A stretch of 32,174 bases of DNA from Gracilaria domingensis (taxonomy: Eukaryota > Rhodophyta > Florideophyceae > Gracilariales > Gracilariaceae): positions 1-32,174 of the forward strand of contig VCMS01000432.1 of the NCBI GenBank assembly GCA_022539475.1. The letters are read 5' to 3'. The notes below the pieces were generated by a model that was not told the DNA's origin, ran no database searches, and worked only from the letters and a program-made list of their open reading frames with translations. Every line of letters starts with the position of its first letter. Position 1 is the first letter of the stretch. Shown one piece after another: positions 743-32,174 of the stretch. The translations under genes and the position numbers were made by a program.

Positions 743-3700
743 GTACGGGAGTCTCCAATGGAGAGGCGCCCGAGTCGAGGTCTACGGCGCCCGAGGCGTC
801 ACCGCCTCGCTCCCAGGTCAAAATCCTTTCGAGGAAACAGACCGTCTTAGACGTGGACTCTACCACCATCGGTGTGTTACGTCGCCCGTGGATACGGTTC
901 AGGAACAACCGGATCCCGGATCGAGTCATGGTGCTGGCCAAGCGAAACTACAAGATATTTGCTGACCTTGGCCTATCCACCCAGTATATGGTGCGTCATC
1001 TCTCTGTCTTGGATACAGGTGCTGGCCCCAACTTCATTGTTGAGTCGTTACTACCGCCGGAAGTCCGTTGTCGAATCCGCTCTGGACCCGTCATGGACGT
1101 GGCAGATGCTAACAATAACCCGTTACAAACGGCTGGAATGGTTTCACTGATTGTCAGGATTGGTAACTGCATCGAGCAGGTAGAATTCATCGTCTGCAAG
1201 ACGCTCGCTGCCCCTGTCATTCTAGGGTGTGACTTCTGCGACAGATATGTCGAAGCCATACGACCGCGTGCGCGTGAAGTGGAAATGGAAGATGGTTCGG
1301 TTGTACCGATTGTTCGTCGCTCATTACGCCGAGCGTCAGCTAAGCTGGTACCACTACCCGCTCCTCTACAGGATTCCTCACCTCCGAAGGAGTCGCCGAA
1401 GCTCCGCGTAGCGCGTGCAATTTCTATTCCGCCAGAATCCCAGGTTTGGGTTGATGTTACTGCCGCACCGCGTGGTTTGCGGGTTGTTCAACCATTGAAC
1501 TCGTTATACGAGAAGTATCAGGTCGCGTTGGCGAACGGAGTTGTTCAAATCAACAGCGAACACCCCTTTCGGGTTATGTTGGCCAACTTTGGCAAGAAGC
1601 CCCAGTATCTGGTGAAGAACCAAGTAATTGGTACTGTCTTACCGCACCCTACGGCGCTTATCCCTACAAAGGTGACTGCCGCCGAGATGCTCGGGCTTGC
1701 TGAAGAACGCACTGGTTTGCTTCACCCTAAGGAGGGGGAGGGAGAATCGTCGCGCTCGTCTGCGTCGGACCCGTCCCAGACGGTTGAACACACGAATGAC
1801 TCGGAAGCTAGGACCGTTCCTACGAGTTATGACAAGATTGACCCTATCAAGGAGTTAGAAGAATTGAATCTCGGTCATGTACCGGTTTCACACCGTGAGA
1901 AGTTGCGCAACATGTTGCGAGAGTTTACACCAATGTGGGATGGTTCCCTCGGAGAGGTTTCAACTACGGAACACCGGATTGACCTCCTGCCGGAGACCAA
2001 GCCGATTGCTCAGCACCCTTACAGGGCAGGCCCGAAAGCACGGGAAGAGGAAGAGTTTCAGATCAACAAAATGCTCCGCGCTGGCGTGATAGAACCGGCT
2101 CAGTCGCCGTGGGCATCTCCAGTTGTACTGGCTCCGAAACCCGATGGGTCCTGGCGCTTTTGTATCGACTATCGTCGCTTGAACGATGTCACCGTCAAAG
2201 ACGTGTACCCCATACCTCGTATGGACGAGTATATCGACTCGCTTGGCGATGCTACTGTTTTCTCCACTTTGGATGCAAACTGGGGTTACTGGCAAGTACC
2301 AGTTAGACCGGAAGACCGTGACAAGACCGCGTTTACCTGTCATTCAGGACTATACCGCTTTAAGCGTATGCCGTTCGGGTTAACGAACGCCCCCGCTACG
2401 TTTCAGCGTGCTCTGGACATTTTGTTAGCTCGCTTCAAATGGCGGAGTTGCTTGGTATACCTCGATGACATCATCGTGTTTTCCAACAGTTTGGACGATC
2501 ACCTCGAACATGTTCGGGAGATAATGACCGCTTTGCGGGATGCTGGAATTACTCTCAAATTGAGGAAGTGTGAGTTTTTCACTCACTCAGTGAAGTATCT
2601 GGGCCATGTCATACGTCCAGGACGGTTACTGATCGAGGAAGCTCGCGTGAAGTCCCTCAAAGAGGCGAAGCACCCCACTACACAGACAGAGCTACGCTCC
2701 TTTCTAGGGCTATGCAACGTTTATAGACGGTTCATTTCTCGCTTCGCGAAGATCGCGGGACCGCTCAACGAACTCCTGAAGAAGGGACAACCGCCCAAAT
2801 TGGGACCACTTACCCCCACGCAAGTGGAGGCCTTCAACTCTCTTAAAGAGGCTGTTACCACGGCACCCGTGTTAGCGTTACCAAAGAACGGGTTGCCGTA
2901 CACCGTGGATACGGATTCGAGCGATTACCAAATTGGCTGCGCTCTCTTTCAGACTACACCCGAAGGGGAACGCAAACCAATTGGCTATTGGTCTCGTACA
3001 CTCAACGTGCACGAGCGCAATTACTCGGTATCCGAGAAGGAGTGTCTCGCCATGGTATGGGCTTTGCAGACTCTACGACCATATCTTATGGGTGTGCACT
3101 TTACCGTCAATACGGATCATTCCGCCTTGCGTTGGTTAATGTCAGTCACGGAGCCTTCCGGACGCTTAATGCGTTGGCGTCTTCGGCTTGCCGAGTTTGA
3201 CTACGAGGTCACCTATAAGAAGGGTTGTTTAAACGCGCAAGCGGATGCTCTTTCACGTCTAGGAACTGAAGGTGAAGCTTTACCCGTCGATGACGAGGAT
3301 GAAGATATCCCCTGTTTCCTCATGGAGGAGGGTGATGAAGACTACGACATCGTGTCGGACGACATCTGTGATGATTTGCTCGTCGCAGACGGTGAAGACC
3401 CGGAATCCGGTACATTCGTCCCCATTACTCCAGAAGAGCTGGTGCGGGAACAGCAATCTGACCCGTTCTGTACGAGGATACGCTCCCAAATTAATGGTGG
3501 TGCTAACATCCCGTTCGGGGTCAACACACAAGGTTACCTCGTCAGAGTGGTTCGTTCTACCCCACAGATTGTGGTTCCTCACTCCTTACAAACAAGGGTA
3601 TTGCATCTCTCGCATCACTCGCGGATGGCTTCCCATCCGGGTGCTAAGCGGTTATACACGACACTGCGTCGGGATTTCTACTGGCCCGCGTTAGCGTTGG

Positions 3701-8909: not shown

Positions 8910-9725
8910 TGTAGTGCAACGCGATTGCGGGACTCCTTCGCTGATGCGATTCATAACATGCACGGCGATGCCGGGAGGTGGTGGCACACAGTATGAGTAA
9001 CTGGTGAGATCAGCCCATTCTTGGGTATACTTAATATTAGAATTAGTGTTATGAGGCGCACGGCTTAGCCGGTGGGTCACACACGTGTGGGAAGTTTGCA
9101 CCCATTAGTTGGGGTATTTTAGATGTTTATTCTAGATATTTTCGCTACACCGCTTGACAGTGGGTTGGCACTCTACACTACTTAGTAGGTTGAGCTGCAC
9201 CCATTGTCGGGGAAGTAAACGGACTAACCGAGTGTTCGGCTCTGATGTTTCACCCTTGGTGACCGATATCCTCCTCCCGGAGAGTCGACACCTTGTGCAG
9301 GGTTCATCATCCGCCTCGCGGCATCATTAACACCACTACCGCTTTCGCGTGTTTACTTTGTGTGTGTTTTCTTTATTTCTGTCCCTGTTATACAGGTAGC
9401 ACTACTTGGTGTACCGGTGCATACCGTTCGTGGCTCGACACACTCGCGTGGGCTATTACCGCTCTCGCGTGTCATCGCCACACTCGTGGGTACCGCGTGC
9501 TACGCACGTGACGCTACTGCCGACTTGTGTCGTGTGTTCTCTACCGCTGGACGCTTCTTCTTCGCCGCTTCGCTCCCTCCATTACTTGGGAAGGGTCGAC
9601 CCCGGTCTTACACCCGGCATTGCCGTGTCGTACCTGTGGGAGCGCTCTACTGCTGTGCTCGCCTCTTGAGAGAGGGTCTGAACCGCCTTTGCGTGTCTTT
9701 CCCCATCGCTGGGTTTTGCACAACA
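8910..9725 (+). repeat. 3' LTR of the first Ty3/gypsy element
   Basis: Starts TGTAGTGC right after the polypurine tract and is inferred to end in ...TTTTGCACAACA at 9725, where Ty1/copia RT coding sequence resumes. Length is about 816 bp with TG...CA ends. The 5' partner is outside the window, so both ends rest on the PPT and on the abrupt start of copia coding at GAT (9726). The open frame through 9360-9725 has no similarity to the copia protein and is LTR sequence read through. It contains near-repeats such as ACCGCTTTCGCGTGT (about 9339) and ACCGCTCTCGCGTGT (about 9457). Confidence 0.75.
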
Positions 9726-10937
9726 GATATAACCATGGCGTATATCCAATCGACGACACCCATCAACCGACTACTATACCTTCGTCCACCCACCGAAATG
9801 CACCTACCACATGACAGTCTTCTGAAGCTCAACCGCACCTTATACGGTTTAACAGAAGCCGGTGATTACTGGAACCACACTTTTACCGTACACACCCTCA
9901 ACGAGTTGAAGATGACAAGGACTGAAAGCGATCAATCACTGTACATGAAGAAGGGGGAAGATGGTAAACTAAATGGGGTAATGGGGACTTACGTTGATGA
10001 CTGCTTACAGACTGGAAACAAGAAGTTTGAAGTTCTAACGGATACAACGGCAGAGAAGTTTGATGCTAAACCGAAGGAGTATGACTCTTTCCTCTACGCC
10101 GGGATACACATCGAGAGCAAGAAGGAACACATTGACATGCATCAAAGACCCCAGATCGAAAAGATGAAGTTGCTAAGAAAGGATGCAGACTACAATGTGT
10201 TCAAGTCAACGCTCATGAAAGTCAATTGGGTAATACACTCACGCCCGGACATCGCTTGTAGCACCTCACAAATGGCGCAAGTGACAGAGAAAATCTTCAG
10301 TAGTGAGCATATCACGCTACTCAACAAGGTCATCACACACTTGAAGAACACACCGGACCTAAGTGTGAAGCACGTCAACATCGACCCTAGCACGTGCTAC
10401 CTGAGAGTTTACTCCGATGGATCCTTTGCGAATAATGCGGACCTTTCCTCTCAACTTGGCTACATCATTACTATTTGTGATCACTTAGGGAACTGCAACA
10501 TCCTAAGTTACCGCTCCTACAAAAGCAAGCGGATTGTTCGCTCCGTGCTTGGTGCAGAGATATACGCGTCTGCCGACGCTTTCGACGCCGCATACATAAT
10601 CAAGAAAGACTTAGAGAACTGTCTAGGAAGAGAGATTCGTTTATGTCTACTAACTGACAGCCAAAGCATATTTGACACGATTACGAAGGCAACGTATACC
10701 AGGGAGAAACGGCTCATGATCGACATTAGCGCCGCTAGAGAAGCATACAGCCGTGAAGAAATATCTGACATTGGCCACATCGATCGCAACAACAACCCCT
10801 CTGACGGACTCACAAAGCCAAAACCATGCCACGCGTTAATTGAAATGCTCCGCACAAATAAAGTCAATCATCCCATTCGCCAATGGGTGATACGACAAAA
10901 GGGCTCGGTCTTCAACGAAGAAAAGAAGAAGGAGTGA
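9726..10937 (+). pseudogene. Ty1/copia RT C-terminal part and RNase H (truncated by insertion)
   Basis: Coding starts abruptly inside the RT at the aspartate motif DITMAYIQS, followed by LNRTLYGLTEAGDYW, YVDD at 9990-10001 (copia-type catalytic box), and RPDIACSTSQMAQ. The RNase H domain begins with YSDGSF (Asp at 10416-10418), then LGAEIYASADAFDAA and DSQSIFD; it ends with a Lys/Glu-rich tail and TGA. The 404 codons have no internal stop, but the N-terminal RT, integrase and Gag are missing because the Ty3/gypsy LTR lies directly upstream. The host copia element was therefore probably intact when hit. Confidence 0.85.
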
Positions 10938-11132
10938 GGTGGTACACACCAGAGACAAAGAGAAGAAGAGCCAGTGATGGCGATCAGCCCTACAGCTGGC
11001 AATCCGACTGACATATCCGACCGATTGCTCTCCGATGCATATCGGGATTCGGCACCTCCCCCGAAGCATTCAGCTTCCGCTCCCTACTTAACGGGCGACT
11101 AGCGCCACTCACAGTAAACGGGCTCTCCCCAG
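10938..11132. other. Copia 3' remnant or spacer
   Basis: Begins with purine-rich sequence (AGAGACAAAGAGAAGAAGAG) just past the copia stop, which could include a polypurine tract. No LTR start can be proven. No gene is seen. It ends at the tail of the minus-strand LINE. Confidence 0.3.
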
Positions 11133-11156
11133 CATACCTGACATACCTGACATACT
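11133..11156 (-). repeat. 9-nt tandem repeat at the LINE 3' end
   Basis: CATACCTGA occurs at 11133-11141 and 11142-11150, with a partial CATACTCA at 11151. Read on the minus strand this lies about 60 nt beyond the LINE stop codon. Many non-LTR elements end in short tandem repeats made by slippage during target-primed reverse transcription, so it probably marks the 3' terminus of the LINE. Confidence 0.5.
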
Positions 11157-11219
11157 CACCCCGCTTCCACGCGCCTTACCTCTCTGCTAGCTAGCAGCCA
11201 GCATTCCACTAGGAGACCA

Positions 11220-13996
11220 TCACTGGAGCACCGTTCTCTCCAAGCTGAGTATGAACGTGTGATATTCGGTGATAGGATTTGTGCCGCGAACGCCGCTGAC
11301 ATATTCGGCGATACGGTGGGCGAATTGTTTCGCTGACTCTCCCAGACCGCCGTGGACATCAAACGCGAACGGCGCGAACTCGACGTTGTTCGTCGCACAC
11401 AGCGCTGAATACTTTGCGCATTTGGCAGCTTCCGCCTTCGAAGCCGCCGCTCCTGCTGTACGTGATGCCGCCAGCGCAAAGTTTCTGCTGCTGGGGCTTA
11501 CAACAGTAACATCGACGCCACAGGGCTTTGGACTGAATCGCATGTCGTCGATGACGAGATCTAGACGCCATTGCTGACTTTCGGGGAGGTGCTGTTGCGA
11601 TGGAAAAGGCCATTCCCGTGTGACGTGCAAACAAAGCGGAGGGCGTTTCAGAAACGTATAGAAAGCGTCCCGAAGTGCATTATGTCGGCGGGTGGAGCCG
11701 ACGCCAATTGGACAAACCATGGCGTGGTACCCGAGAGCGTCGAGTTGTGGAACGGAGGCAATGTTTGAGTGCACACACATGGGACATGGAGCTCTGGAAA
11801 ATAATCTTTCTCCGAGCCTGAGGTCGATCATCGTTTTGAATATCTCAGGCGGGGGAGAGGGGTTTCGTGTTGGATGGGTGAAGGAAGTGAAGCACAGGTT
11901 AGCCTCGGTCGTAGACACCGACTTCAGACGCGCGCGGCGCAGTCGGTTGGGAAACGTCTCTGTCTGCGACGGTGATTCGAGTTTTGCAATCTGCTCGACG
12001 ATTGCATCAGTGTATGAGTGTTGCAGTTTGGCGATGAAACCGCTCTCATTCGCTCTCGCCGACAAAGAGTCAAACGTGAACTCGGAAGGCAGTGAGTAGG
12101 CTTGTTTCACTACATTGGTAATTTGCGCCAGTCTGACGTAGTGTGATGGCGTGACTCCATACGGTTGCAGCGCGCGCTGGATCTCTGAATTTATGAGAGC
12201 CCATGCTGCCATGAACGAGGACACGAATGCCGCTCTGAGTACCCAGGAAGCCCTCGAAAGACCGAGTCCGCCTTTGCTGAAAGGCAAGCATGCTCTACGC
12301 CAGCCTTGTGGAGAAACTGGCCTATGTATCTTTTGAAACACCCTTCGCTGTTGTTCGTCGAAATGTTCGACCTCAACCGAGGTTAAGTGCGGCGGGGTGG
12401 CTCGCAACATATAGGTCAGCTTACAAGAGCCTGCGCAAAAGCGCACCAAGGTTAGGGCCATGTTCGGATTGTTGAGAGATATCAGGGCTTCGCGTAAAGA
12501 TTCTTGTTTGTCCCGGCCGGATCGTAAGAGCTTTTTCACGGCGCTGCCGTGCCCTATCGGACCACCAAGCACCTGGATAGCGTTCTCTTTGTTAATCGCT
12601 GCTGAAAAGAAGGGGATGGTCGGTGTACGTCACCACCACGCGAAGGTTTTCTGCAGGTTTGGGACGTAACCGATTCGGGCACCCTCGGTGTTCAGGGCTG
12701 ATAGGAAAGTTGTCGCCGCATTTCTCTTGATAAGCACGTTGCCATCATCGGAGTAGAAGAGATTAAGGACGGGGTTGAATTGGTTTTGTAGCTTCAGAGC
12801 GAGGGGATGGAGAGCGAGCGCAAAAAGCAACGGGCTCAATGGGTCTCCCTGTTGGGTACCGGTTTTGCTTTCGATGATGAAGGTGCCAAATCGGAGCGGG
12901 ATGGGTGCACAATAACAGTATTGCACGAAGCGTGCCATGGAGGGGCAGTGTTCGATCGTGGCTTTGAGGATCAGCTGGCGTTCAATTGCGTTAAACGCAT
13001 TTGTTGCATCGATACTGATCAGCACGAGGTCTTCTCTACGTAGCTTATTGGCGACATTTCGGAGAATGTGCAATATTGCTTCACTGCCGCATGGGGTCCC
13101 TACGCCTAGTTGGTGTGGGCGTAGGTAAGACTGCACTTCATTGTCTCGTGACATTGCCTTGGCTACCATACGGGCAATGAATCGTCTCCACACCAGGCCG
13201 ATCGCCAATGGACGAAGCTTCGTTGAGCGTGGTTTTGCAATGCCTATGAGATTGCCAGTGGAGAACCACTGCTCACTACCCATGGGCAGCTTCCCCGCGA
13301 CAACCGCGTTGATGAAAGTAGTCACTTCTTTCATTATTGGACGGTCAGGGGGCTGACCGCCTGGAGTTGCTGCGAGATACTTTAGAAAAAGCGGACGCAT
13401 ACCATCTGGACCTGGCGAGGGTGATTTTGATGTCTCCTGCAGTGCGCGACGCACAGATGCTTCATTGAATGACAGCGGGGGTGGGAGTTGCGAGAGTGGT
13501 GTGGGTTGGATCGGAATGGATGGTGATGGGTGGAGTTGGGATAGAGCGTCAGCTGCCTCGAGAGATGGGGTCACTGGCTGTGTTTGAGAGCTTAACACAG
13601 CACATGCCTTGGTGTACTCACCCTGGAGGAATGCTTTGCGGGCTCTGCGGAGTTTACACGGTGGTGATGACAGTTGGTTCGGGACTTGTAGGTGTGCCAA
13701 GCGGGCCTCGTCAAGGAGAGTGTACCATTCGCCCTGCAGGGCTAGCAGTATCCTCCTTTTGATGGAGCGCGCTAGGGAAGGACGGTTTCTGTTACGAGGT
13801 TCCCCACGTCCATTTCGGCGGAAGACTAGCTTGGGGGTTGCGATGAGTCGCGTGAGGCAGTGTTGTTGGAGTGCCGGCGTACGGGCAGTATTGTAGTTGT
13901 GGAGGAGGTGGTAGTAGAGCTCGATGTAGTCGAGACGAAGGGAGCGTTGGAGGAATTCCACAGTTGAGAGGCGAAGATTAGGTACAAGCTTGAGAG
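11220..13996 (-). pseudogene. Non-LTR retrotransposon ORF: RT plus restriction-like endonuclease
   Basis: One frame runs from 13996 (open after a TAG) to 11220, about 925 codons, cut by a single in-frame TGA at 12629-12627. RT motifs in order: SPSPGPDGMRPLFLKYL, IGIAKPRSTKLRPLAIG, LISIDATNAFNAIERQ, GTQQGDPLSPLLFALAL, and YSDD at 12755-12744 (usually YADD in LINEs). After the stop come a thumb-like region and a Cys-Cys-His-Cys block (CPMC near 11.78 kb, then YHAMVC), RRHNALRDAF, an E..LDLVIDDM segment and GVDVTVV. This arrangement resembles the R2/CRE-type restriction-like endonuclease that nicks the target for reverse transcription. No N-terminal zinc finger or ATG is seen, so it is probably 5' truncated, as is common for LINEs. 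Inactive as read unless the stop is bypassed. Confidence 0.8.
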
Positions 13997-14236
13997 GCTA
14001 GCCTATATCCACAGTAAAGATGGTGTTTTGTTCTTCAATATGTCTTCAGTTAGAGGTCTCGTCACACACGTAGCAGCTTGAGATCAAGCGGGCGACAACA
14101 CACTCACAAGGCTTTGCAGCCTCCACCACCAAGTAAACTTGCAGACTCATCGGCTTCTCTCTTTATGTTCCCGCAGATTATGGGCCACACTCACGCACAT
14201 CGACTGAACTGTAAAGACTGCAACCATGTGGTCTTA

Positions 14237-14441
14237 CAGTCCCCAAAACGCCTATAGATCCACAAACAAAAAAGCACACCACGCCAAAACCGCGCAGCAG
14301 ACGTCTTCTTGGGCAGCGCAGTCCGGTGGAACCTTCGATTAGGAGCCAAAAAAGGCATCAAAGCCACACAATAAAGCCGGCTTTTGTCCGTTAAGTGATA
14401 AAACACATATCGAAAGATCTATAACGCCATGAACTTTTATA
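14237..14441 (+). repeat. Left terminal inverted repeat of the Tc1 element
   Basis: Matches the reverse complement of 15600-15805 in patches at equal spacing: the outer end CAGTCCCC, TATAGATCCA about 15 nt further in, AAAGCCACA near 14361, and a perfect inner block GCCATGAACTTTTATA at 14426-14441. Arms are 205 and 206 bp. Confidence 0.8.
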
Positions 14442-14597
14442 AAGACCAACAAATCTTTTTATACATAACTTGGCAGCAAAAAGCCCGCCATAATTTAAAT
14501 CTTGCATACATATATTACGACACAAGCTTGGCTAACACGCCAACTTTCAGCCATCATAACCGCCAAAAACGTCTCGAGCTCGTCTTTTGACGAATAA

Positions 14598-15564
14598 CCA
14601 AAAAACCTTATTCTAGCCCACCACAGTCATGGCATTTCTCAACGATACATTGCCAAAGAACTTGGTCAAAGCCGGGGGTGCATCCAAAAGTTTCTGAGCA
14701 AACCTAACTCTCATCAGCAGCTCCCATTCAAGCCCCGTCATGTCAAACTCTCCAAAACAATCGTTCGAGCCATTGTAAGGCAGGCATCAGCGTCACGTTC
14801 CATTGTGGCCGAAGTACAGAACCAGTATCAGTTACCGGTCTTTGTTCGCCGGGTTCAACAGATACTGTCGGAAACAGTCTACTTTTGCTATCAACGTATG
14901 CCATGTGGACTGTTTATGACCAAGATACATCAGCAAAATAAAGTGACCTGGACGAACGCCAAGCTGCACTTTCGGGCTGTTAAATGGATAAGAATCATCT
15001 TCTCCGACGATAACGAGTTTACTTTGGACGGCCCTAACGGGCTTGCGTCGTATTGGCATGATCTGCGCACCACCCCGGAACTTTTCTCTAAACGTCAGCA
15101 CGGGGGTGAGTCTTTATTGGTCTGGGGAGCCATTTTTTACTACGATTGCAGCGACTTAGATCATGTCGTGGGCACCCAGGACTCGAAGAAGTACTGTGAA
15201 ACATTGGAACGTAGTTTACTGAAGTTTGCTGCTGACTCTTGTGGAGAAAGATGGACGCTGATGCACTACGGTGCATCTATTCATCGCTCAAGATACACAA
15301 AAATGGCTTTCTGACAAGTGAATTGATGTTTTGGACTGGCCAGCTAAGTGTCCGGACTTAAACCCCAATGAAAATGTGTGGGGTAGGCTGGCCAGAAAGG
15401 TGTACGCGGATGGCACGCAGTTTGATAACGTAACGGATCTAGCAAAGAAGGTGTTGAAATGTTGGAACGAAATCGAAGAGAATTATCTTCAAACGCTATA
15501 TCATTCAATGCCGCGGCGTTTGGTCTCGGTCATTGAAGGAAAAGAAGCTACGACAAAGTACTAA
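14598..15564 (+). pseudogene. Tc1-type transposase, inactivated
   Basis: The N-terminal helix-turn-helix is readable at 14634-14720 (ISQRYIAKELGQSRG then CIQKFLSKPN), in a frame open only after a TAA at 14595-14597. DDE motifs: first Asp in FSDDNEF (15006-15008); the second, normally DNA in this family, reads YGA (LMHYGASIHRS, Tyr codon 15267-15269), a loss of the catalytic Asp; the third is in PDLNPNENVW with Glu at 15370-15372. A frameshift near 15295-15310 and a TGA just after it separate the second and third motifs. The C-terminal part runs to a TAA at 15562-15564. Broken by frameshift, stop and catalytic substitution. Confidence 0.85.
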
Positions 15565-15599
15565 GATTGGAGTGAGGGTGTGTTTTACGTTGTGGCCCA

Positions 15600-15805
15600 T
15601 ATAAAAGTTCATGGCTTTATTGTAATTTCGTGTTGTTTATTGTGCAGAAAAGAGGTGTGTTTCTGTTTTATTTTGTGGCTTTATTGCGTTATGCGGTTCT
15701 CTACGAGTATTACATGCTATCCAGACGCTATAGTGTTGATTACTTTTGTTGGCTTTGTTTGGCTGAAGCAAAAGATTTTTGGATCTATACTGATTTCGGG
15801 GACTG
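15600..15805 (-). repeat. Right terminal inverted repeat of the Tc1 element
   Basis: Partner of 14237-14441. Inner block TATAAAAGTTCATGGC at 15600-15615, outer end GGGGACTG followed by TA. Imperfect, with substitutions and small indels throughout. Confidence 0.8.
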
Positions 15806-16429
15806 TACGATGCCCATTAACAAACATGTCTCGACGATTCCTCCTGGCTGGACAGCCAAACGAAACCAAATCATCAGTGCAGTACCTGATAAAACATAAT
15901 TCACAGAACTTCTTGGCCTTTTTAAAGATAGAGAACCTTCTCTGAGGCTCTACTATAGTTTAATAGAAAGAAACTACCTTCCTGACCAGGGCAATGTGGA
16001 ACGCGGGCTAACGTGGAACATCAGGAGTTCAAGAGCCCCAATGTGCCATATGAGACTATAGTAGCCTTAATGGACCTGAGTAAAGCATAGAAATGACAAC
16101 CTTGCTTCACACGAATTGCTCTTCATAGCTCTAGACAAAACCATGCACAAAACCATGCGTTTTTCTCTAACAAAAGCTGTATTCTTTACCAATATACTTC
16201 TAAACCAATTTTATCTTCTACAAAGAGTGTACGAGGCTAATTTCAGACCTGAGGCGCGCGCATATGATCGCGAGCGCTCGTCCAAAGCGTATTGCACGCA
16301 AGCGCACCATGCTTCTTCTTTTGCGACTCTTATGTAGATTGTGGCGCTGCAATGGTGACAGCTTCAATGTGACGACAAAACATGAGAACCAACGGCAAGC
16401 AAGCCTCAATTGAAGCCATCTGAGGTAAC
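15806..16429. other. Unassigned sequence right of the Tc1 element
   Basis: An open frame (to TGA at 15945) continues from the sequence left of the Tc1 element if the element and one TA are removed; see findings. Beyond it are only short frames, none recognised. A T/A-rich stretch at 16120-16220 has a repeated AAAACCATGC. The last part may belong to the copia remnant that becomes readable at about 16430. Confidence 0.35.
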
Positions 16430-17190
16430 GAGATAACCGACGACCCGCTGCTGTACGACGACATCAACTTCGGATCCCAATTCGCGCAGTAGAACGACCA
16501 TCGTCACATCTCCGCCTAACTCGCGAGCAGTATTCCTGCTCGTCCCTTTAATGCACCCTCCAAAGACAAAGGTGACTATTCGGCAGCTGGTTCTCCACCC
16601 TCAGGCGCTCGTCTGTAAACAGCCAGGCAGACTATTCTTACAGATTTGTACGAGCGCTATGGGAACGAGCCTTCAACCGAGCATCGACTGCAGTGCGCTC
16701 CTCGCTGGCTTTTGGACGAGGCAATCGAAAAGGAAAAGCAAAGCTACCGAGAACGAGAGACGTACCAAGCTGTATCGATTCGAAACTTGCCGCGAAGGGC
16801 CATTCTCATCTCATCTCACTATTTCTTTGTGATTAAGCACGACGGTGAGAGCAACTCCTACAAACTAAAGATGCCATCTCGTTGCACATGGCAACAAGGA
16901 CAAAGAGAAAGATTGCCTTCGTTCGGACTCTTCCACAGCATTCGCAACGATTCGCTTGGTCCTATCACTTGCCTCACTATTCCATTTTTTGCTCTCCGCG
17001 TTGGATGTAAAATCAGCATACCCCCAAGCCAGAGAGCTGCAGCGGAACATTTACATGAGGCCGGCGCGAGGATGGTCGCACTACGTCTACGAAGTCCGGA
17101 AGCTCCTAGCTCCAGCATATGGACTCGTCAAAACTGGACGGCTATGGCAACTGTGCGTTGAAGAGTGGCTCCTCGCCCAGGTAATCATTT
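16430..17190 (+). pseudogene. Ty1/copia RT N-terminal part, heavily decayed
   Basis: The linker reads DPLLYDDINFGSQFAQ. Then comes the copia RT start (LDEAIEKEKQSYRERETYQ, followed by a dozen residues and FFVIKHDG) in frame 2 from about 16640. After a frameshift near 16920-16980 the frame continues with LDVKSAYPQARELQRNIYMRP (Asp codon 17004-17006), then KLLAPAYGLVKTGRLW. Similarity stops near 17175. Several stops and at least one frameshift. It overlaps in homology with the start of the copia fragment at 9726 and differs from it throughout, so it comes from a different family. Confidence 0.75.
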
Positions 17191-17520
17191 GCCTGGTGCA
17201 GGTATGGTTTGTGCCTGATGTGGGGGTCACATATATACCATGTGCCTGTTTCGTGCCTCACATAGAAAGGGCACATATCAGGCATACAACAGGCACCGGT
17301 GAGGCATTTACAGGTGGTCATTGGCGCTCGTTCTGTGGCTGTTCTGTGTCTGTTGTGTGCATGGTTCTGTGGTTGTTCTGTTTCCAGAGCTCACACGCCG
17401 GTCACCCGCTGTCACTCTGTTCAGTGACAATTGTCGGATATCATGCTTTGTCACCGCTCAATGCTTTACATTTTGATCAGATGCGCCATCGATTTTCTTT
17501 AAATCCACGGTTCAGGCTCT
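17191..17520. other. Repeat-like, G/T-rich noncoding stretch
   Basis: No gene. Contains an imperfect inverted repeat (TGCCTGATGTG near 17213 with CACATATCAGGCA near 17273), repeated TTCTGTGGCTG/TTCTGTGGTTG/TTCTGTTT motifs at 17329-17390, and TGTCACT/AGTGACA arms at 17410-17416 and 17423-17429. This looks like debris of a small nonautonomous element, but no ends can be set. Confidence 0.35.
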
Positions 17521-23563: not shown

Positions 23564-23976
23564 TGTGGCCCGTCAAACGGTACACGGACAGGTGTGCGTG
23601 TCTACACTCCTGCGTTGTGCCCAACGCAGCGGTAATACAGAATATAGTTTAAAAATGCTTTATTATAGTTAATCCTATCTTAGGTTTAGTTAGTTTTCTA
23701 CGCAGAATCTACCTTGCGTGTGGCCAGGAGGCGCCGCACTACAAGCAGGGCGACATGAGATTGTCTACTTAAGTGGCAGAGAGCGCTCCAACGCTGACCA
23801 CCCGACCTCATCGGCTGTCAATTGCCAAATTCGTGGTCACCCACAGGAGGCGCCTGCGCTTGCGCAAATACACGTGCATTCCACGCTGTGTACTGCGTTG
23901 CGTAGGCGCCCCCTGTGGCGGCATATGCGCTTAAAGTATCTACCACCTACGCCTCTTATAGGCTAGTACGGTAGAT
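23564..23976 (+). repeat. 5' LTR (part proven by match to the 3' LTR)
   Basis: This 413-bp stretch aligns end to end with 31751-32174. The true LTR continues to the right, because the window ends before the 3' copy does. Shared blocks include TTTTCTACGCAGAATCTACC and GCATATGCGC. Differences are mostly 1-4-nt indels plus substitutions, by eye near a tenth of positions. It carries several inverted repeats: CTGCGTTG/CAACGCAG (23610-23617, 23622-23629) and an 18-nt arm pair at 23841-23858 and 23901-23918. Confidence 0.9.
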
Positions 23977-24000
23977 ACAACGCATCCATTGGCCAAGCCA

Positions 24001-24039
24001 ACCGTACCGTCGATTCCCGCCTGGAATCGACGGTGCGGT
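24001..24039 (+). promoter_or_regulatory. 17-bp-arm dyad just upstream of the TATA-like box
   Basis: ACCGTACCGTCGATTCC (24001-24017) and GGAATCGACGGTGCGGT (24023-24039) are complementary at 16 of 17 positions around a 5-nt centre CGCCT. It ends 5 nt before CATAAAAGGG. A dimeric regulator site is a natural reading; an RNA hairpin is unlikely if transcription starts downstream. Confidence 0.55.
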
Positions 24040-24043
24040 TGTG

Positions 24044-24053
24044 CATAAAAGGG
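24044..24053 (+). promoter_or_regulatory. TATA-like promoter element of the LTR
   Basis: CATAAAAGGG, with a CCAAT-type box on the minus strand (CCATTGGCC at 23986-23994). The start of transcription would be expected near 24075, followed by a pyrimidine-rich leader. Assigned by position and sequence only. Confidence 0.5.
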
Positions 24054-24679
24054 CCGGAGCAGTCGCCTCCGACTCAACTCCGGCCAGACCACTTCCCTTC
24101 GACGACCTTCCCCCCTACCCCACCACAACCTTCCAACCTCTCTCCTTTTCCCTTTGTCGTCCTCAACCTTTCCTCATCCCCTACTTCTCTCTCTACTTCT
24201 CCCCTTGGCGGCCTGGTCTCACCGCCCTCCCTCGCTCACTGCCACTCACACTGACCCTCTGTCTGGGCTCGTCCTGTGTGAGTAGGCAAAGCGTCTGCAC
24301 CACCCTTCCATTGGGTTAGCCTTGTGCAGGCGTGACTCTGCCTTTCATTATCCGCTTTGTTTGGCCTTTCTTGTCTCTTTTGTTCCCTTCGTTGGTTTCT
24401 TTCGCTGTTGTTGGTCTATCTGCCATTCTGTATTGCCTGAACTACCGTTGTTGTTGTCATCTTCGTTTTTTCCCCGTTTCTTGCTGTTTGGCGGCCTTCT
24501 GCTGCCTGCATCCGTTCTATTGCTTCCCGTTTCGGCCTTGGTTCCTGGTTTTGCTGGTTCTTTCGCGTTGCGATTCTGTTCCTCACATAGTGTTGCTTTG
24601 CACCTGTTGTTGCTAGACGCACTGTGTGATACAGCGTAAGGTTGTCCTTAACCTACGGCCCTGAGGCAATCGTTCAAGA
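24054..24679 (+). other. ATG-free 5' leader of the retrotransposon RNA
   Basis: Very pyrimidine-rich (CCTTCC/CTTTTCCC runs). It contains no ATG on the plus strand; hydrophobic frames in it begin only at GTG or TTG and are artefacts of the T-rich sequence. Probably the R/U5 part of the LTR plus untranslated leader. The U5 end and primer-binding site are not identifiable. Confidence 0.6.
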
Positions 24680-24748
24680 GTAAGTTGTCTACAGCTACTC
24701 TTTTGGCATTTTGTGTGACTACTAACGTTTCGTTTGTTTCACATCAAG
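24680..24748 (+). other. Predicted 69-nt spliceosomal intron in the leader
   Basis: Donor GTAAGT at 24680, perfect branch motif TACTAAC at 24720-24726, a T-rich run, and acceptor AG at 24747-24748, 22 nt past the branch motif. Removing it joins A24679 to TG24749-24750 and creates ATG CCA AGG in frame with the zinc-finger ORF. Signals are read directly; use is predicted. Confidence 0.7.
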
Positions 24749-25179
24749 TGCCAAGGTCTATCGTTTCATCCAGCGAGTATTCGTCCGTGGTCGATCCGGA
24801 CGAGCGTATAGAAGAAGTCCCCGATCCCGTTCCTCAGATAAAGAAGTCGGCTGTTCAGCCTCTTGACGGGCCACGCGAGCGCCACATCTTTCGTGTAGCC
24901 CACCAGAAGGAGAAGCGCCGTCGTAACCCCCCGCCACGTAAGCAAATCCTAAAGCGCTGCCGCGTCTGCGACATTAAGGTTCAGAGTCAACGCCAGCTTG
25001 AAGTTCACCAAGCAGGCCGACGCCATCGTAGAGCCGTACGTCGCGCCAACTACACCGAGCAGGACATCCACTGCGAGGTTTGTGACATCAAGTTCTCCGA
25101 AGCTCACGATCTGCGTGTGCACTACAGAAGCCGTCGCCATCGTGCGACCCTTAGGAAGAAGAACAATACTATCTATTAG
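24749..25179 (+). CDS. Accessory protein with two U1/JAZ-type C2H2 zinc fingers (143 aa after splicing)
   Basis: Start ATG is formed by A24679 plus TG24749-24750; there is no other ATG in this frame, and the stop is TAG 25177-25179. The N-terminal half is acidic then Lys/Arg-rich (KEKRRRNPPPRK). Finger 1: CRVCDIKVQSQRQLEVH then QAGRRH; finger 2: CEVCDIKFSEAHDLRVH then YRSRRH. Both are C-X2-C-X12-H-X5-H, the spacing of U1C/JAZ/matrin-type fingers, which often bind RNA, including double-stranded RNA. The C-terminus is basic. Gag begins 286 nt downstream. A role in RNA export, packaging or regulation, like accessory proteins of complex retroviruses, is inferred. Alternatively it is a captured cellular finger domain. 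Confidence 0.7.
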
Positions 25180-25464
25180 AGCACAGGTCTCTCTTTTCAT
25201 TGTCCAGTTGTGACACATTTCTATTCATATCTCATTACATATATTATCCTTGTTTGTTCTTCTTTATCTTCTCGCCTATCGTTTGGTATCCCTCTTCTGT
25301 TCTTGTGTTCGTGCTTTGTTGTTTGGCTTCTGCCGCACTCTATCTACGTAAGCTTATATTTGGCTAGTGCTTCTTCGTCCGATTGGACTGGTACTCTACG
25401 AGAGCAAACTTTATTTTCATTGTTTTTGCCCCCTTTGGCTGTAACCGCCGGCGCCATCACAAAA

Positions 25465-28443
25465 ATGGCGTTTTCATGGTACTCTCGCCGAGGTGCCCTT
25501 GGCCCCGATACTATGGACACCTCGACGCCTCTCTTCGACGGATACAATTCCGATGTTCGTCGATTTCTCTTTTTCTTCGAGAACGTTGCCACCCGTGGAA
25601 AGCCTGATGAGGAGCGTTCCTCCGAAATCTTGGGCTTCCTAAGTGGTGACGCCTTCGATCATTATTATAATAATTTCTCTGTAGATGGCGTGCTCACCCC
25701 GAACGCGGCCAACTACATATCAGTTAAGAAGTCCCTGCTCGATCGCTTTGGCGCTGCTGAGGAACCCGAGGAGTATATCCGAGAAGCTGTGACTGCCCGT
25801 TTGGACTACGGTGATCTCCTTGGTTCCCTCCAGCGCATGGACGCTTGCTTCGACAAGGCCGAGTTCAACGCGAAGGCCAAGTTCGGCCTTCTCCGTAAAG
25901 CGGTTATGGAGTACGCAGACCTAGCTCAGTTTGTGATATTCCGCGGAGCAAGCGACTATAAGTCGTTGAAAGACCTCATCAAATCCTTTGTGGCCGGCAA
26001 AAAGGCCCTCGGAGCAGGTGGTTCACTGGCGTTTATGCCTCCTCCGAAGAAAGTGTTACAAAGGAGGCCCGTCGACCCTTCTGATAGGGATCCCACTGCA
26101 GACAAGGTGGATCAGCTAGCTAGTCAGCTTGCAGAACTCACTCTCTTGATGAAGAAGAAGTCAGGACCACCTCCGAAGGCTGATGGAGAGCAAGTTTGTG
26201 GCTACTGTCAGAAGCCTGGTCACTTTTCTACTCGCTGTCCACAGAATCCGCATCGCGATACGCGTTGTGGGGGTTGTGGAAAGATGGGACATTCCATCGC
26301 AACGTGTTGGAAGCGCCATTCGGAAAAGAAGGTCCGTTTCGATGCCGAAAATCAGAAAGAAATCCCGGAAGTTCCCAGACCCAACCAAGTTTCTGTAGTC
26401 ACCGAGGATGACGTTCAGGATCGCGAGACTGTAGCGATGGCCAAACGAGCCGCTGATGGCGCCCCATTGCCAAAGCAGGCCCGCCTGGAACATCGGGTTG
26501 GTGTCAAGGAGCTTCTGAACCCAGCAAGCGACACCCCATTTCGCTTGATTCGCTCAGCTACGCGTAATCGATCCGGGAAGCCTAAGAAGGCCTCCACAAA
26601 GAAGCTCTCTGGTAAGTCAATGCTCCAGGAGCACGCCGGAAAGTATAACGTAATGGAGGAGCTCGCGAATGCCCCGACCGGGCTCACATTCGGTCAACTC
26701 ATTCGCGGGGACGCCGATGCGGCCAAGAAAGATCTGCGTCGAATCATCTCTGGCCGTTCAACGACCAGAAAGGTCAATGCGACCCAGGTCGAGCGTGAAA
26801 ACTCTCGTCTTAAGGTTGTGCCTATTACAGTCTATGGGACCATGACCCAAGCCCTCTTGGACTCTGGCGCTGTCCCGAATCTAATTTCAGCAGAACTAGC
26901 GGACCATCTGCTACTGACACCGAACCCCACTGAAAGGACGATTAAAGTAGCTGATGGCAATGTTGCCCGCATTCGTGGTACTCTAGAGGGCGTTCCTGTA
27001 AGGTTCGATGACCTCCGAGTATCCCTCGAGTTTCTTGTTATCGAGAAGCCCCCCTTCGATGTAATCATCGGGAACCCCACGCTAGAAAAGCTGCATGCCT
27101 GTATCGATCTTGGTACACAAGAAGTCACCATGAGTTACAACAAGAAGCACGTCGTTATAGGACTCGACTCCGATCGTTCCGGATTAGAAGCATTTGTCCC
27201 GTTGTCTGAGACAGATAGCGAAGATTTCACGTCAGACTCTGATGCTATCCCGTCTGACTCTGAAGATGAGTCGGAGGACTTTGCTAACCTCCCCCTTCCA
27301 AAGCAGCGAACAACTGGTGGCGCCGAAGTGACCCTAGTGGCAGTAATGGAAAGGGATGGGGACGCAGGATCCCAGGATGGCGAAGAGGAGAACGATGGTG
27401 AGGAAGAACCCGCCAATGTGACAGCGCAGCCCACCCAAGCCGGGCCGTTCGAAGGACCTCAAGTATCTGACCAAGCCCGTCGACCGACTCAGGCTGAAGA
27501 TTCCAACGGCCCTAACTTCACCTGGCGTACCATCGGGACTCAGATCCATCTGGATAGTTTGACCGCGGAGCGTGGGGAGAACCCTCATGCAAATAATGTG
27601 CATATTGCCGGACCCGATGGCCCACAAATTCCTCCAGAGGGAGAAAGGGTGGCAGTCGGACCAGCACCGCGTCAGCAATCCCAGCTGATCTCCCAGTATG
27701 ATGATGACGAGGATCGACGATTCGAAGACGCGGAGGAAGAAGTGCAGGCAGATCCCCCTGTCGAAGAAAGGTCCGGACCCAATCCCTCCTCCTTCCAGAG
27801 CGAGTCTACGGATACCAGCGTACAGCCAGAAGATGTGAATGTCGTGATTCCTACAAGTATTGCACCCAGAGCTAATAACGCCAGCGAGGACAGTGAAGTC
27901 CGGCCTCCTGACGATGGGCCCGTAGGTGAAAGCCCGGCGGAGTTCCCAGACGGTAGTGACGATGAGGACGACTCCTCACCGGAGGAAGTAGACCTCATTG
28001 GCTCACCACTCTACCGCGACTCTGACCTTACCATCCCGATCAGAGACGAAGTAGTTCTGCTTCCTTTAGCCGAAGGACAGTCAGTTACTGACTTCTTGGA
28101 CGTGCGGGTTCAATTGCGACATCCAGTACCGTCACCCGCGCGTCCCCCTCATCTAGAAGCACAGAACTTACCGCTCAACCGCGTAGGAATGCTGGAGGAC
28201 GACGACTCCGGCGGTTATGTCATAGCATTTGAAGAAGAACTACCTCCGGACGAAATCGACGCCCGGACCCCGGGAGATGATGAACATTCACAAGACCCAA
28301 GCCGCGACGAAGAAGTTGTGGCCGAGCCTACGTGCCCAGCGCAAGACATTGAGTATTCTCTGCAAGATCCAATTGCGCAAGATTCACTCGGTCGCACGCT
28401 CGACCGACGTGATTACCCCCCCACACCAACAAGGAGGAGGTGA
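25465..28443 (+). CDS. gag-pro: Gag-protease polyprotein
   Basis: The first ATG of the unspliced leader RNA, at 25465 (AAAAATGGCG), starts this 992-codon frame; the 85 codons open upstream have no ATG and are leader. Capsid-like region: DTSTPLFDGYNSDVRRFLFF onward. Two CCHC knuckles lie at about 26199-26311: CGYCQKPGHFSTRC and CGGCGKMGHSIATC. Protease: ALLDSGAVPNLIS with catalytic Asp at 26860-26862, followed by FDVIIGNPTLEKL; DSG replaces the more common DTG. From about 27130 to the TGA at 28441-28443 there is an acidic, Pro/Ser-rich region of about 430 codons with no recognised domain. RT follows in the -1 frame with a 31-nt overlap. Confidence 0.85.
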   Translation: MAFSWYSRRGALGPDTMDTSTPLFDGYNSDVRRFLFFFENVATRGKPDEERSSEILGFLSGDAFDHYYNNFSVDGVLTPNAANYISVKKSLLDRFGAAEEPEEYIREAVTARLDYGDLLGSLQRMDACFDKAEFNAKAKFGLLRKAVMEYADLAQFVIFRGASDYKSLKDLIKSFVAGKKALGAGGSLAFMPPPKKVLQRRPVDPSDRDPTADKVDQLASQLAELTLLMKKKSGPPPKADGEQVCGYCQKPGHFSTRCPQNPHRDTRCGGCGKMGHSIATCWKRHSEKKVRFDAENQKEIPEVPRPNQVSVVTEDDVQDRETVAMAKRAADGAPLPKQARLEHRVGVKELLNPASDTPFRLIRSATRNRSGKPKKASTKKLSGKSMLQEHAGKYNVMEELANAPTGLTFGQLIRGDADAAKKDLRRIISGRSTTRKVNATQVERENSRLKVVPITVYGTMTQALLDSGAVPNLISAELADHLLLTPNPTERTIKVADGNVARIRGTLEGVPVRFDDLRVSLEFLVIEKPPFDVIIGNPTLEKLHACIDLGTQEVTMSYNKKHVVIGLDSDRSGLEAFVPLSETDSEDFTSDSDAIPSDSEDESEDFANLPLPKQRTTGGAEVTLVAVMERDGDAGSQDGEEENDGEEEPANVTAQPTQAGPFEGPQVSDQARRPTQAEDSNGPNFTWRTIGTQIHLDSLTAERGENPHANNVHIAGPDGPQIPPEGERVAVGPAPRQQSQLISQYDDDEDRRFEDAEEEVQADPPVEERSGPNPSSFQSESTDTSVQPEDVNVVIPTSIAPRANNASEDSEVRPPDDGPVGESPAEFPDGSDDEDDSSPEEVDLIGSPLYRDSDLTIPIRDEVVLLPLAEGQSVTDFLDVRVQLRHPVPSPARPPHLEAQNLPLNRVGMLEDDDSGGYVIAFEEELPPDEIDARTPGDDEHSQDPSRDEEVVAEPTCPAQDIEYSLQDPIAQDSLGRTLDRRDYPPTPTRRR

Positions 28444-29978
28444 TTCTAGAACGGATCTCTCATCTCCCAAGGGATAGACGGGTGGACCTCCTCGCTGTTC
28501 TGGATAACTTGAATGTCATAGCATGGTCCTTGTATGATCTTAGGCCCTCTGACGTGCCGGTAACGCACAGGTTTGACCTCAGTGTCGAGACCCCAATTCA
28601 TTCGAAGGTCCGAAGGCTACCCCCAAAGCATGACGACGTTGTTCGGAAAGAGGTCGACAAAATGTTGTCCGCCGGGATCATCAAGCCGTCCACCTCTCCT
28701 TGGTCCTTCCCAGTTGTCATCGCACATAAGAAGGATGGAAAGCCCCGGTTCTGTGTCGACTATCGGGGTCTGAACCAGGTCATGACGCCCGACAGGTGGC
28801 CCCTGCCAAACATGGAACAGATTTTTGACGATTTGGGTGGTTGTTCGTTCTTCACGACCCTAGACCTTTTCTCCGGATACTGGCAGGTGCGCATGGCCCC
28901 TGACTGCAAAGAAATGACGACTTTCGTTTGTCGTCAGGGAACCTTCCAGTTTGAAGTCATGCCTTTTGGTCTCATGAATGCCCCAGCCACGTTTCAAAGA
29001 ATGATGGACGCGGTCCTTCATGGGGTGGAGTTTGCTCGCGTCTATATAGACGACGTTGTCATCTTCTCGAGAAGCCTGGAAGAACATTTGTACCACCTAA
29101 CCAGGGTGCTCGAGATCCTTGCAAGTCATGGTCTGAAGATAAAAATATCCAAATGTGATTTTGCACAACCCCGTATCAAACTGCTTGGTCACGTCATCAA
29201 CAAGGAAGGCACTTCGGTTGATCAAGACAAGATCGACGTCATCCAAAAGGCCCCCGAACCATCGACGGTAACCGAGCTCCGAAGTTTTCTCGGTCTAGCC
29301 AGTTATTATCGAAGGTTCATAAAGGATTTCGCAGATACGTCAGCAGTATTGCATGCTGCCACTACAGGGAAGGGAAAGCTGAATTTCACCAATGAGATGA
29401 AGACAGCGTTTAATGATCTAAAGGGAAAGTTAGTATCCCCGCCGGTCTTAGCATTTCCCGACTTTGAGAAGCCTTTTAGAGTTGAAACCGATGCTTCTTC
29501 AGTCGCGCTTGGTGCCGTTCTGTCACAAAAGAAAGAGGACGGAATGTATCACCCAATTCAATTTGCCAGTCGCACGCTTAATGCCGCCGAGCGAAAGTAT
29601 TCTACTTGCGAGAAAGAGGCCCTAGCCGTGGTCTTTGCCTTGAAGAAGTTTCGCATGTATCTACTCGGAGGTCTCCCCTTTGAGCTTGTTACGGACCACC
29701 AAGCTCTGAAGTATGCATTCCAAAAGAAGGACATTCACGGGCGCCTAGCCCGATGGATGGACCTGCTAGCGGAATACGAGTTCGTTATAGTCTATAGATC
29801 TGGCGATAAGAATCGGGCTGCCGACTATCTCTCTCGCTTTGCCGTTGGGGATCCACCGGAGCCGGATGATGACGTGTCTGTTGTACTGAATGCAACGGAC
29901 GAGGTCTATGACTTGGAGCCTTCTGCGCGCACATCAAGTTGTACCTTGCCGCCTTTTCTTTTCCTGAAGAAGACCTAA
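28413..29978 (+). CDS. pol: Reverse transcriptase and RNase H (pol, -1 frame)
   Basis: Open from 28413 (after TGA 28410-28412), overlapping Gag-Pro by 31 nt; the first codon usually proposed, GTG at 28440, is not a plausible start. RT: TSPWSFPVVIAHKKDGKPRF, FFTTLDLFSGYWQVRM, MPFGLMNAPATFQRMMD and YIDD at 29043-29054. RNase H: VETDASSVALGAVLSQ (Asp codon 29490-29492), EKEALAVVFALKKF, VTDHQALKYAF and DKNRAADYLSRF. The last codons before TAA 29976-29978 appear to be out of phase: a neighbouring frame reads more naturally from about 29930, and the integrase zinc domain resumes at 29988, so an indel is likely here. Confidence 0.85.
   Translation, partial: LPPHTNKEEVILERISHLPRDRRVDLLAVLDNLNVIAWSLYDLRPSDVPVTHRFDLSVETPIHSKVRRLPPKHDDVVRKEVDKMLSAGIIKPSTSPWSFPVVIAHKKDGKPRFCVDYRGLNQVMTPDRWPLPNMEQIFDDLGGCSFFTTLDLFSGYWQVRMAPDCKEMTTFVCRQGTFQFEVMPFGLMNAPATFQRMMDAVLHGVEFARVYIDDVVIFSRSLEEHLYHLTRVLEILASHGLKIKISKCDFAQPRIKLLGHVINKEGTSVDQDKIDVIQKAPEPSTVTELRSFLGLASYYRRFIKDFADTSAVLHAATTGKGKLNFTNEMKTAFNDLKGKLVSPPVLAFPDFEKPFRVETDASSVALGAVLSQKKEDGMYHPIQFASRTLNAAERKYSTCEKEALAVVFALKKFRMYLLGGLPFELVTDHQALKYAFQKKDIHGRLARWMDLLAEYEFVIVYRSGDKNRAADYLSRFAVGDPPEPDDDVSVVLNATDEVYDLEPSARTSSCTLPPFLFLKKT
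28416..28422 (+). promoter_or_regulatory. Candidate -1 frameshift heptamer C CCC CCC
   Basis: Within the 31-nt overlap the gag-pro frame reads TAC-CCC-CCC-ACA, so seven C residues form an X XXY YYZ heptamer where both tRNAs can re-pair after a -1 slip. The alternative is that the true genome has eight C and the frames are fused: a homopolymer undercall gives the same pattern. Confidence 0.45.
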
Positions 29979-31294
29979 GATCGCGCTTTGGTTAAGAGGA
30001 ATGCGAAGAAGTTCTTCCTTTGGGAAGGTCTTCTCTATCGCCGTACCAAGAAAGGATTAAGAGTGGTACCCTCTGTAAGCAAGCGCCGTGGCATCCTCTC
30101 ATCCTTTCATGATGACATAGGACATTGGGACTTGGAGGCTACTAAGAATCTGGTCCAGTTCCGATTCTGGTGGCCTGGAATGTACCCCGACATCGTTTCA
30201 TATGTTCGCAGTTGTGATGGGTGTCAGTTCACAACACCCCTGCTTAAGTACCGGCCAGGACAAAGAGCCCCATTGACTGGTCTATTTCATACATTCTCTG
30301 TGGACTTTCGCCGGTCCTCTTCCGGCTACCAGGAATGGCAACCGTTTTGCTCTGATTGGTGTAGAACACATAACAGGATGGCCTATTGCCGCGGCCTACG
30401 GTAATCAGACCTCTACCACCGTCATTCACTTTGTTCGATCTCAGATCGTTTCCCCGTTTGGTTCCCCGCTGACGATCGTGCCCGACAACTTCAGTATCTT
30501 CAAAGCCAAGGCAGTCGAAGCATACATGGAAAGTAGAAGATATCCTCAAGCCCACCATGGCCTATGCCCCTATGTCTAATGGCCGGGCTTGAAAGAATGG
30601 TTGGAACCATCAAGAAATCGATTGCCAAACAATCTTCAATAAGGGACAAGAATGGGATGAAGCTCTCGAGCAGATAATTTACGGATACAGGAGGCGCCGG
30701 CTGGGTGGCGGGTTTTCTCCTTTTGAGCTCATGTATGGCACGGTCCCACGGATGAGCTCAGACGACCTACCCCCTCTCATCGTAGATCCAACCCCCATAA
30801 TCGTCATCATGAACTACTTGCAAATTCCGCAGGCAGAGCTTCCAGAGTTCTATCTCAACCAATCGACAAGACGACCCCAAGTCCGGGCACCGGTTCACGT
30901 CGGTGATGAGGTCTTGGTGATACATGGGAAGGCTCTGAATCCCAACGTGAAATGGCCTGCCTTTCAGTCAAAATTCTACGGACCCTGTAAGGTGGTTAAG
31001 GCCAGGCACCCCCGATATGTCCTAGTGTCCCCTCATAATCGTTACACTAGAGAAGGGGTTCCACGCCCGCCGGCTCAAGCGGTATCATCGCCGACCAGTT
31101 CATCTGCAGGACGAGGTGGTAGCCACTATTACGGAAGGCGAAGACACCTCCTCGTCCCACTACCGAAGTCCCACTCAGATCACTGGGAATGCACTCGGGC
31201 CAGCGTTGACTACAATATCCTCACTGCACCCCACCTCTCGTGTCACTTTTATCATTGGAGGGGAAAAGCATACATTCATGGCTTAGCCCTTTGA
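29979..31294 (+). pseudogene. Integrase, disrupted by several frameshifts
   Basis: The HH-CC zinc domain is intact: HDDIGH near 30107, and CDGC at 30213-30224. The catalytic core starts FHTFSVDF but leaves frame just after the first Asp (near 30306). The continuation is legible in the next frame, with the second Asp in TIVPDNFS near 30482. A stop and another phase change near 30577-30592 fall where the glutamate region should be. The C-terminal GPY/F-type module is in the frame from 30731 (KFYGPCKVVKARHPRYVLV), with a further phase change near 31050. No chromodomain is seen. At least three indels make it inactive, unless they are assembly errors. Confidence 0.75.
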
Positions 31295-31750: not shown

Positions 31751-32174
31751 TGTGGCCCGTCAAACGGTACACACGGACAGGTGTGCGTGTCTGGAACTCA
31801 CTGGCGTTGTGCCAACGCAGCGGTAATACGAGAAGGTCTAGTTTAATAACTACTGCTTTGATTATAGTAGATCTATCTATGGTTTAGTTAGTTTTCTACG
31901 CAGAATCTACCTTGCGTGTGGCCAGGAGGGCCGCACTACAAGAGGGCGACATGAGATTCGCTACTAAGTGGCAGAGAAGCGCTCCCCCTGACCACCCGAC
32001 GTCATCGGCCTGTCATTGCCGAACATTCCGTGCGACCCCACAGGAAGGCGCCTGCGAACTTGCGCAAATACAGTGCGCATTCCAGCTGTGTACTGCGTGC
32101 GTAGGCGCCACCCCTGTGGCGGCATATGCGCTAAAGATTACCACCATACGCCTCTTATAGGCTAGTCGGTAGAT
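31751..32174 (+). repeat. 3' LTR, cut by the window end
   Basis: Starts TGTGGCCCGTCAAACGGTAC and follows the 5' LTR to its GGTAGAT at 23976. Many 1-4-nt indels relative to the 5' copy, including inside both arms of the 18-nt inverted repeat. The dyad, TATA-like box and leader would lie just beyond the window. Confidence 0.9.

Follow-up and report, generated by a model that had tools for sequence, protein, structure and literature searches.

A zinc-finger gene inside the long terminal repeat of a red algal retrotransposon, with a start codon that splicing would create

We analysed a contig of the red alga Gracilaria domingensis (VCMS01000432.1, 32,174 bp, the whole of which is called the window here) that carries one copy of a high-copy Ty3/gypsy-type retrotransposon. 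The 5' long terminal repeat (LTR) of this element probably contains a whole accessory gene under the control of splicing: removal of a 69-nt intron would lead to a protein with two zinc fingers, and retention of the intron would lead to Gag. Of the readings considered, the sequence best supports one in which splicing decides between the accessory protein and Gag; this reading is likely but unproven.

Results

Predicted intron and split start codon

The following features of the forward strand make up the proposed gene.

23564-25476, + strand: 5' LTR with TG...CA ends, 1913 bp, matched at full length in many other copies
23925-25465, + strand: 1540 bases that lack ATG in every frame
24044-24085, + strand: predicted core promoter (ATAAAAGG box) and start region
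24679, + strand: A of the split start codon, read from the sequence as the last base of exon 1
24680-24748, + strand: predicted intron of 69 nt, with GTAAGT (24680-24685), TACTAAC (24720-24726) and AG (24747-24748)
24749-25179, + strand: finger open reading frame (ORF) from the TG of its start codon onward, 143-residue protein, stop at 25177-25179
25465-28443, + strand: gag-protease ORF, with its ATG and first four codons within the LTR

A preliminary description of this DNA had proposed that a donor, a branch site and an acceptor delimit 69 nt whose removal creates an ATG, split as A and TG, in the frame of a two-finger protein. All of these elements were found where it had placed them. When 24679 is joined to 24749, the sequence reads TTCAAG-ATG-CCAAGG, in frame with the finger ORF. 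We took as the mark of such an accessory gene that intron removal supplies the start of the protein, and at the level of the sequence this is the case here. The open frame 24652-25179 contains no Met codon, as had been reported. The further statement that unspliced RNA cannot start the protein held for AUG, but near-cognate codons are present upstream in the same frame. The accessory ORF does precede the gag ATG as described; its actual place, however, is inside the LTR. Because the LTR spans 23564-25476, it contains the intron, the finger ORF and the gag ATG, and the predicted promoter likewise lies within it. Position 25476 is the exact end of several 3' LTR copies, as judged by copy comparison.

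The layout GTARGT...TACTRAC...AG (spacers of 15-150 and 8-60) occurs once on the two strands of the 32-kb window, at this intron, and the whole LTR contains one TACTAAC and one GTAAGT. Signals of a similar kind occur in host introns flanking actin-family exons. Four of these introns, read by eye from the exon positions, had the donors GTAACT, GTAAGT, GTAAGT and GTACGG and, before the acceptor, TACTGAC, CACTGAC, TACTGAC and TCTGAC, respectively, so that three of the four combined GTAACT or GTAAGT with TACTGAC or CACTGAC. From sequence, we infer that the 69-nt intron is spliced. A second donor-like GTGAGT is located in the leader at 24278-24283; it was present in all seven copies examined (window included), five of which have leaders only ~0.7 identical to that of the window.

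A leader without ATG

The ATG-free stretch, which the preliminary description had missed, is the longest on either strand of the window; the next-longest runs are 490 (+) and 589 (-) bases. Within the predicted leader (24044-25464), no ATG was found, against 12.0 expected from dinucleotide shuffles (0 of 2000 shuffles reached 0). With transcription assumed to begin at 24075, unspliced RNA has its first AUG at 25465 and spliced RNA at the junction. The ATG-free leader therefore implies that on unspliced RNA the first start would be that of Gag, and on spliced RNA that of the finger protein. The proposed switch gains support from this 1.4-kb leader, yet its splicing step is a prediction.

We compared 20 further LTRs over their whole leader. 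Eleven had no ATG before the gag position and nine had 1-4, whereas 8.7-12.5 were expected. Six of the 11 ATG-free leaders are only ~0.7 identical to that of the window, and one of the 11 (L054) has lost the gag ATG itself. The predicted core promoter showed few changes across these 20 copies, although the identity of the U3 region to the window was 0.29-0.51 in 10 of them.

These features suggest the following mechanism. Transcription would start near 24070-24085. If the intron 24680-24748 were removed, the junction would supply the RNA with its first AUG, from which the two-finger protein would be translated. If the intron were kept, scanning ribosomes would encounter no AUG for ~1.4 kb, until that of gag at 25465. 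The unspliced RNA would serve both as the template for Gag and as the template for reverse transcription, and the two RNAs would coexist.

Selection on the ORF and retention of the signals

We searched the alga's own genome (77.9 Mb, 680 contigs), in which the window is a complete contig. The nucleotide search gave 40 near-identical matches, these being the ones scored among 173 candidates. In the protein search, 150 of 279 candidates were scored, and the listed matches ranged from 100 to 47% identity. Among 60 diverged matches, we sampled 40 further copies: the first 20 with a whole LTR, and 20 as shorter stretches, chosen mostly as full-length matches; many of the 20 matches left out were partial. 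The intact-ORF set comprised 27 copies including the window, each with an ORF of 432 nt, whether or not its first codon was ATG. Outside this genome, five Gag relatives were 31-47% identical. In scans with a Gag alignment, none of the 63 pattern matches in viral_contigs and none of the 38 in genome_contigs was confirmed as a relative; conservation was therefore tested only among the copies of one genome.

Of 26 comparisons of the ORF with that of the window, 25 gave a ratio of non-synonymous to synonymous substitution rates (dN/dS) of 0.06-0.17 at dS 0.36-0.76; the comparisons have ancestry in common and do not count as independent. The remaining comparison (L043) had a dS of 0.01 and was uninformative. 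By this measure, the finger ORF is under purifying selection.

The 40 further copies kept GT in 38 cases, GTAAGT in 35, TACTAAC in 33, AG in 37, the split ATG in 34 and the gag ATG in 35; donor, branch site, acceptor and split ATG were all exact in 26. On the internal branches of a tree of the 27 intact-ORF copies, there were 0 changes at 15 splice-core sites, compared with 57 at 142 third codon positions. The seven splice-core changes were all on terminal branches, as expected if an active lineage needs the signals and its copies lose them after insertion.

Copies without the intron

A word spanning the splice junction had no hit in the genome, either as 35 bases with up to 3 mismatches or as 19 bases with up to 1 mismatch, although both searches could miss strongly decayed intron-less copies. 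The matching donor word was found at 121 places, and 76 of the 100 listed were without mismatch. The lack of an intron-less copy against 121 donor places indicates that the RNA that is reverse-transcribed is unspliced.

Evidence against the splice-dependent choice

Several observations weigh against this reading. Among the 20 shorter, mostly older copies, 17 had 1-11 ATG between 24600 and gag, and three had none. Within the ORF alone, the lack of ATG was not significant (12 of 13 copies had none and the other had one; expected 1.1-2.2; P 0.08-0.28). The split ATG was missing in six of the 40 further copies, and two of the 40 (L043 and L073) differ hardly at all from the window in this region. 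The remainder of the intron is also conserved, with 7 internal changes at 54 sites; the absence of changes at the 15 core sites is not significant, since only ~2 would be expected at the rate of the rest of the intron. Variable sites in the core (7 of 15) and elsewhere in the intron (16 of 54) likewise showed no significant difference. Moreover, exchange between subfamilies has affected segments of the ORF (in L045-L048, the ORF is 0.89-0.92 and the flanks are 0.96-1.00 identical) and inflates the contrast with third codon positions. A weaker-looking donor, GTAGGT, was found in 16 of 42 near-identical LTR alignments, in which some places are counted twice, and in 15 of the 100 donor-word places listed. 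The GTGAGT in the leader could possibly mean that other splice forms are made.

The LTRs of L043-L062 are mosaics whose U3, leader, ORF and 3' part differ in identity to the window, which indicates exchange between subfamilies.

An internal Met codon was found in five of the 27 intact-ORF copies. In three of these (L043, L050 and L079), the split ATG is still intact. Met 32 is common to L050, L079 and the stop-bearing L055 and is thus a trait of a small sublineage. The other two, L063 and L065, have lost the split ATG; they are long-branched sisters with one internal-branch change at this codon. The ATG-free state is therefore not absolute in every sublineage.

The preliminary description had held that a plain ATG in the ORF or a loss of the splice signals would refute its switch. 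Either was found in a minority of copies, whereas the layout itself, the ATG-free leader, the selection on the ORF, the retention of the signals in most copies examined and the failure to find an intron-less copy all support the switch.

Alternative explanations

A leader intron might be removed constitutively, with Gag made from the spliced RNA by re-initiation and no switch involved. The 285 nt between the finger stop and the gag AUG contain no ATG, and the donor and the branch site look strong, both of which would suit this arrangement. However, a spliced genome would cost the progeny LTRs their intron, and 0 junction hits were found against 121 donor places. The ATG-free state also spans exon 1, the intron, the ORF and the stretch beyond, as expected when unspliced RNA is scanned. 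We regard constitutive removal as unlikely. Translation of the finger protein from unspliced RNA at a non-AUG codon, such as the CUG at 24661, with the intron signals being incidental, appears quite improbable. It is favoured by the upstream frame (24652-24750), which is free of stops in 25 of the 27 intact-ORF copies and contains near-cognate codons, the CUG at 24661 having a G at -3. If the intron is read as coding, however, two synonymous to 4-6 non-synonymous changes separate the subfamilies, compared with 40-45 to 15-22 in the ORF (Fisher P 0.016-0.10, for ten subfamily-2 comparisons that rest on largely the same changes; P 0.22 for the L044 comparison, 0 to 1). In addition, CTG 24661 is TTG or GTG in four of the 27 copies, and a non-AUG start leaves unexplained why donor, branch site and acceptor are laid out to make an in-frame ATG.

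The signals might also coincide by chance, the ORF being a host-gene fragment caught in the LTR. Such an origin would fit the shortness of the ORF and the lack of a finger-protein homologue in the set searched; we nevertheless consider it very improbable in view of a dN/dS of 0.06-0.17 across subfamilies, four signals that are exact in 26 of 40 further copies, and a splice layout that occurs only once in the window.

The finger protein

Profile searches supported the earlier description of a two-finger protein. They found two C2H2 fingers of the zf-met/jaz type, a type associated with dsRNA binding (zf-met, E 1.1e-09; zf-C2H2_jaz, E 5.1e-09), which passed the curated cut-offs (38.7 bits against 21.2 and 36.5 bits against 22.6, respectively). 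Weak matches in the PDB were ZNF622 (E 0.0038) and the RNA-binding protein ZFa (E 0.0043). No homologue passed E 0.001 among the proteins searched (18 candidates). A single-sequence structure model, with a mean predicted local distance difference test score (pLDDT) of 73.0 and a predicted TM-score (pTM) of 0.26, contained helices and strands that would be compatible with two fingers. Speculatively, the protein may bind nucleic acid, with RNA of the element itself as the probable target, and act on its export, packaging or silencing. The host genome gave four Piwi-domain matches, so a role related to silencing is as conceivable as one in export or packaging.

Architecture of the element

The remaining features of the element in the window are as follows.

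25477-25493, + strand: putative primer-binding site (TGG...), adjoining the LTR end, identified by position only
28413-31294, + strand: pol (reverse transcriptase, RNase H, integrase), read in the -1 frame with respect to gag
31751-32174, + strand: first part of the 3' LTR, indel-rich and truncated where the contig ends

The element is a high-copy Ty3/gypsy-type LTR retrotransposon. It has direct LTRs with TG...CA ends, followed by the putative primer-binding site (by position only), and domain profiles of copy L037 gave the order protease, reverse transcriptase, RNase H and integrase. The integrase core of L037 scored 28.2 bits, below the Pfam cut-off of 32.6, and the H2C2 domain 57.8 bits against a cut-off of 25.5. 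The pol frame of the window copy is broken towards the contig end and is open in L037, in which gag-protease (1087 codons) and pol (1075 codons) are both open in a -1 register. The overlap of the two frames in the window (28413-28443), also in a -1 register, lies beside a run of C and is a possible frameshift site. The 5' end of gag is formed by the last 12 bases of the LTR (from 25465), and its frame continues through the putative primer-binding site. Before the 3' LTR of L037 (9446-9494), the sequence is G/T-rich, with no evident polypurine tract. Tandem LTR-internal-LTR-internal arrays, with copies ~8.1 kb apart, were observed at L031, L034, L040 and L041 (contigs C399, C92 and C94).

Elsewhere in the window, 718-6273 and 9246-17500 contain other retroelements, including a Ty3/gypsy-type pol with a chromodomain; copia-like, non-LTR and mariner-like pieces in the same regions are suggested by ORF reading only. 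An Rfam scan of the window returned nothing at the gathering score, and ARAGORN (bacterial code) found no tRNA. In the genome, eight of 12 phycobilisome-family matches, all eight with E 2e-46 or better, are on contig C680, which is probably the plastid. These matches point to a red algal host, with a glaucophyte or a contaminating cyanobacterial contig as less likely sources.

Discussion

If the splice-dependent choice is real, it is a very compact one between two proteins: one start codon is made or not made, in a leader otherwise cleared of such codons. The location in the LTR and the ATG-free leader make the case stronger than it was in the preliminary description. Real LTR-encoded proteins can be missed because their reading frame begins without an ATG. 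A wider proposal, which we put forward only tentatively and hold to be rather doubtful, is that every LTR of the family, those of the tandem arrays included, is a self-contained splice-gated gene, that the finger protein binds RNA and acts on the unspliced RNA (export, protection, packaging), and that the element uses the splice-only start codon both to sense and to set its splicing ratio.

Neither a splice-made start codon in an LTR retrotransposon nor an ORF wholly within an LTR was found in the literature covered, including PMC7264820 and PMC12786077; this coverage was partial, with few subscription journals, and is no proof of absence. The combination has partial likenesses in several known systems, and the likeness to complex retroviruses would be one of analogy only. 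In mouse mammary tumour virus (MMTV) sag, foamy-virus bel/bet and human immunodeficiency virus (HIV) nef, accessory frames lie wholly or partly inside the LTR, like the finger ORF. Unlike the finger ORF, they are expressed from the provirus's 3' side, and their starts are not known to be made by splicing in an LTR leader. In the plant LTR retrotransposons Ogre and EVADE, splicing concerns the Gag and Pol products and is not known to involve an accessory gene in the LTR, unlike the case described here. Both plant elements do resemble it in having functional introns and subgenomic RNAs made by alternative splicing (PMC12786077).

In EBNA-LP of Epstein-Barr virus, an AUG is made by splicing C2 or W0 to W1'. 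That system differs in being a DNA virus with alternative exons and acceptors, whereas the LTR case would depend on removal or retention of one intron, with Gag downstream. The CERV protein of Cer1, an LTR retrotransposon of Caenorhabditis elegans, is an accessory protein made from a spliced retrotransposon mRNA; export of the unspliced genomic RNA depends on it, and one of its loops, rich in cysteine, may be a C4 zinc finger (PMC10309623). The finger type differs from that in the LTR, and a splice-made start codon is not described for CERV in the text consulted. A red alga is far from nematodes, and the present case would therefore suggest more than one origin for splice-gated accessory genes in LTR retrotransposons such as Cer1. 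Each half of the proposed arrangement has a precedent, the splice-made AUG in EBNA-LP and the accessory protein from spliced retrotransposon RNA in CERV; by analogy, CERV would be the closest functional parallel, and EBNA-LP the closest for a start codon made by splicing.
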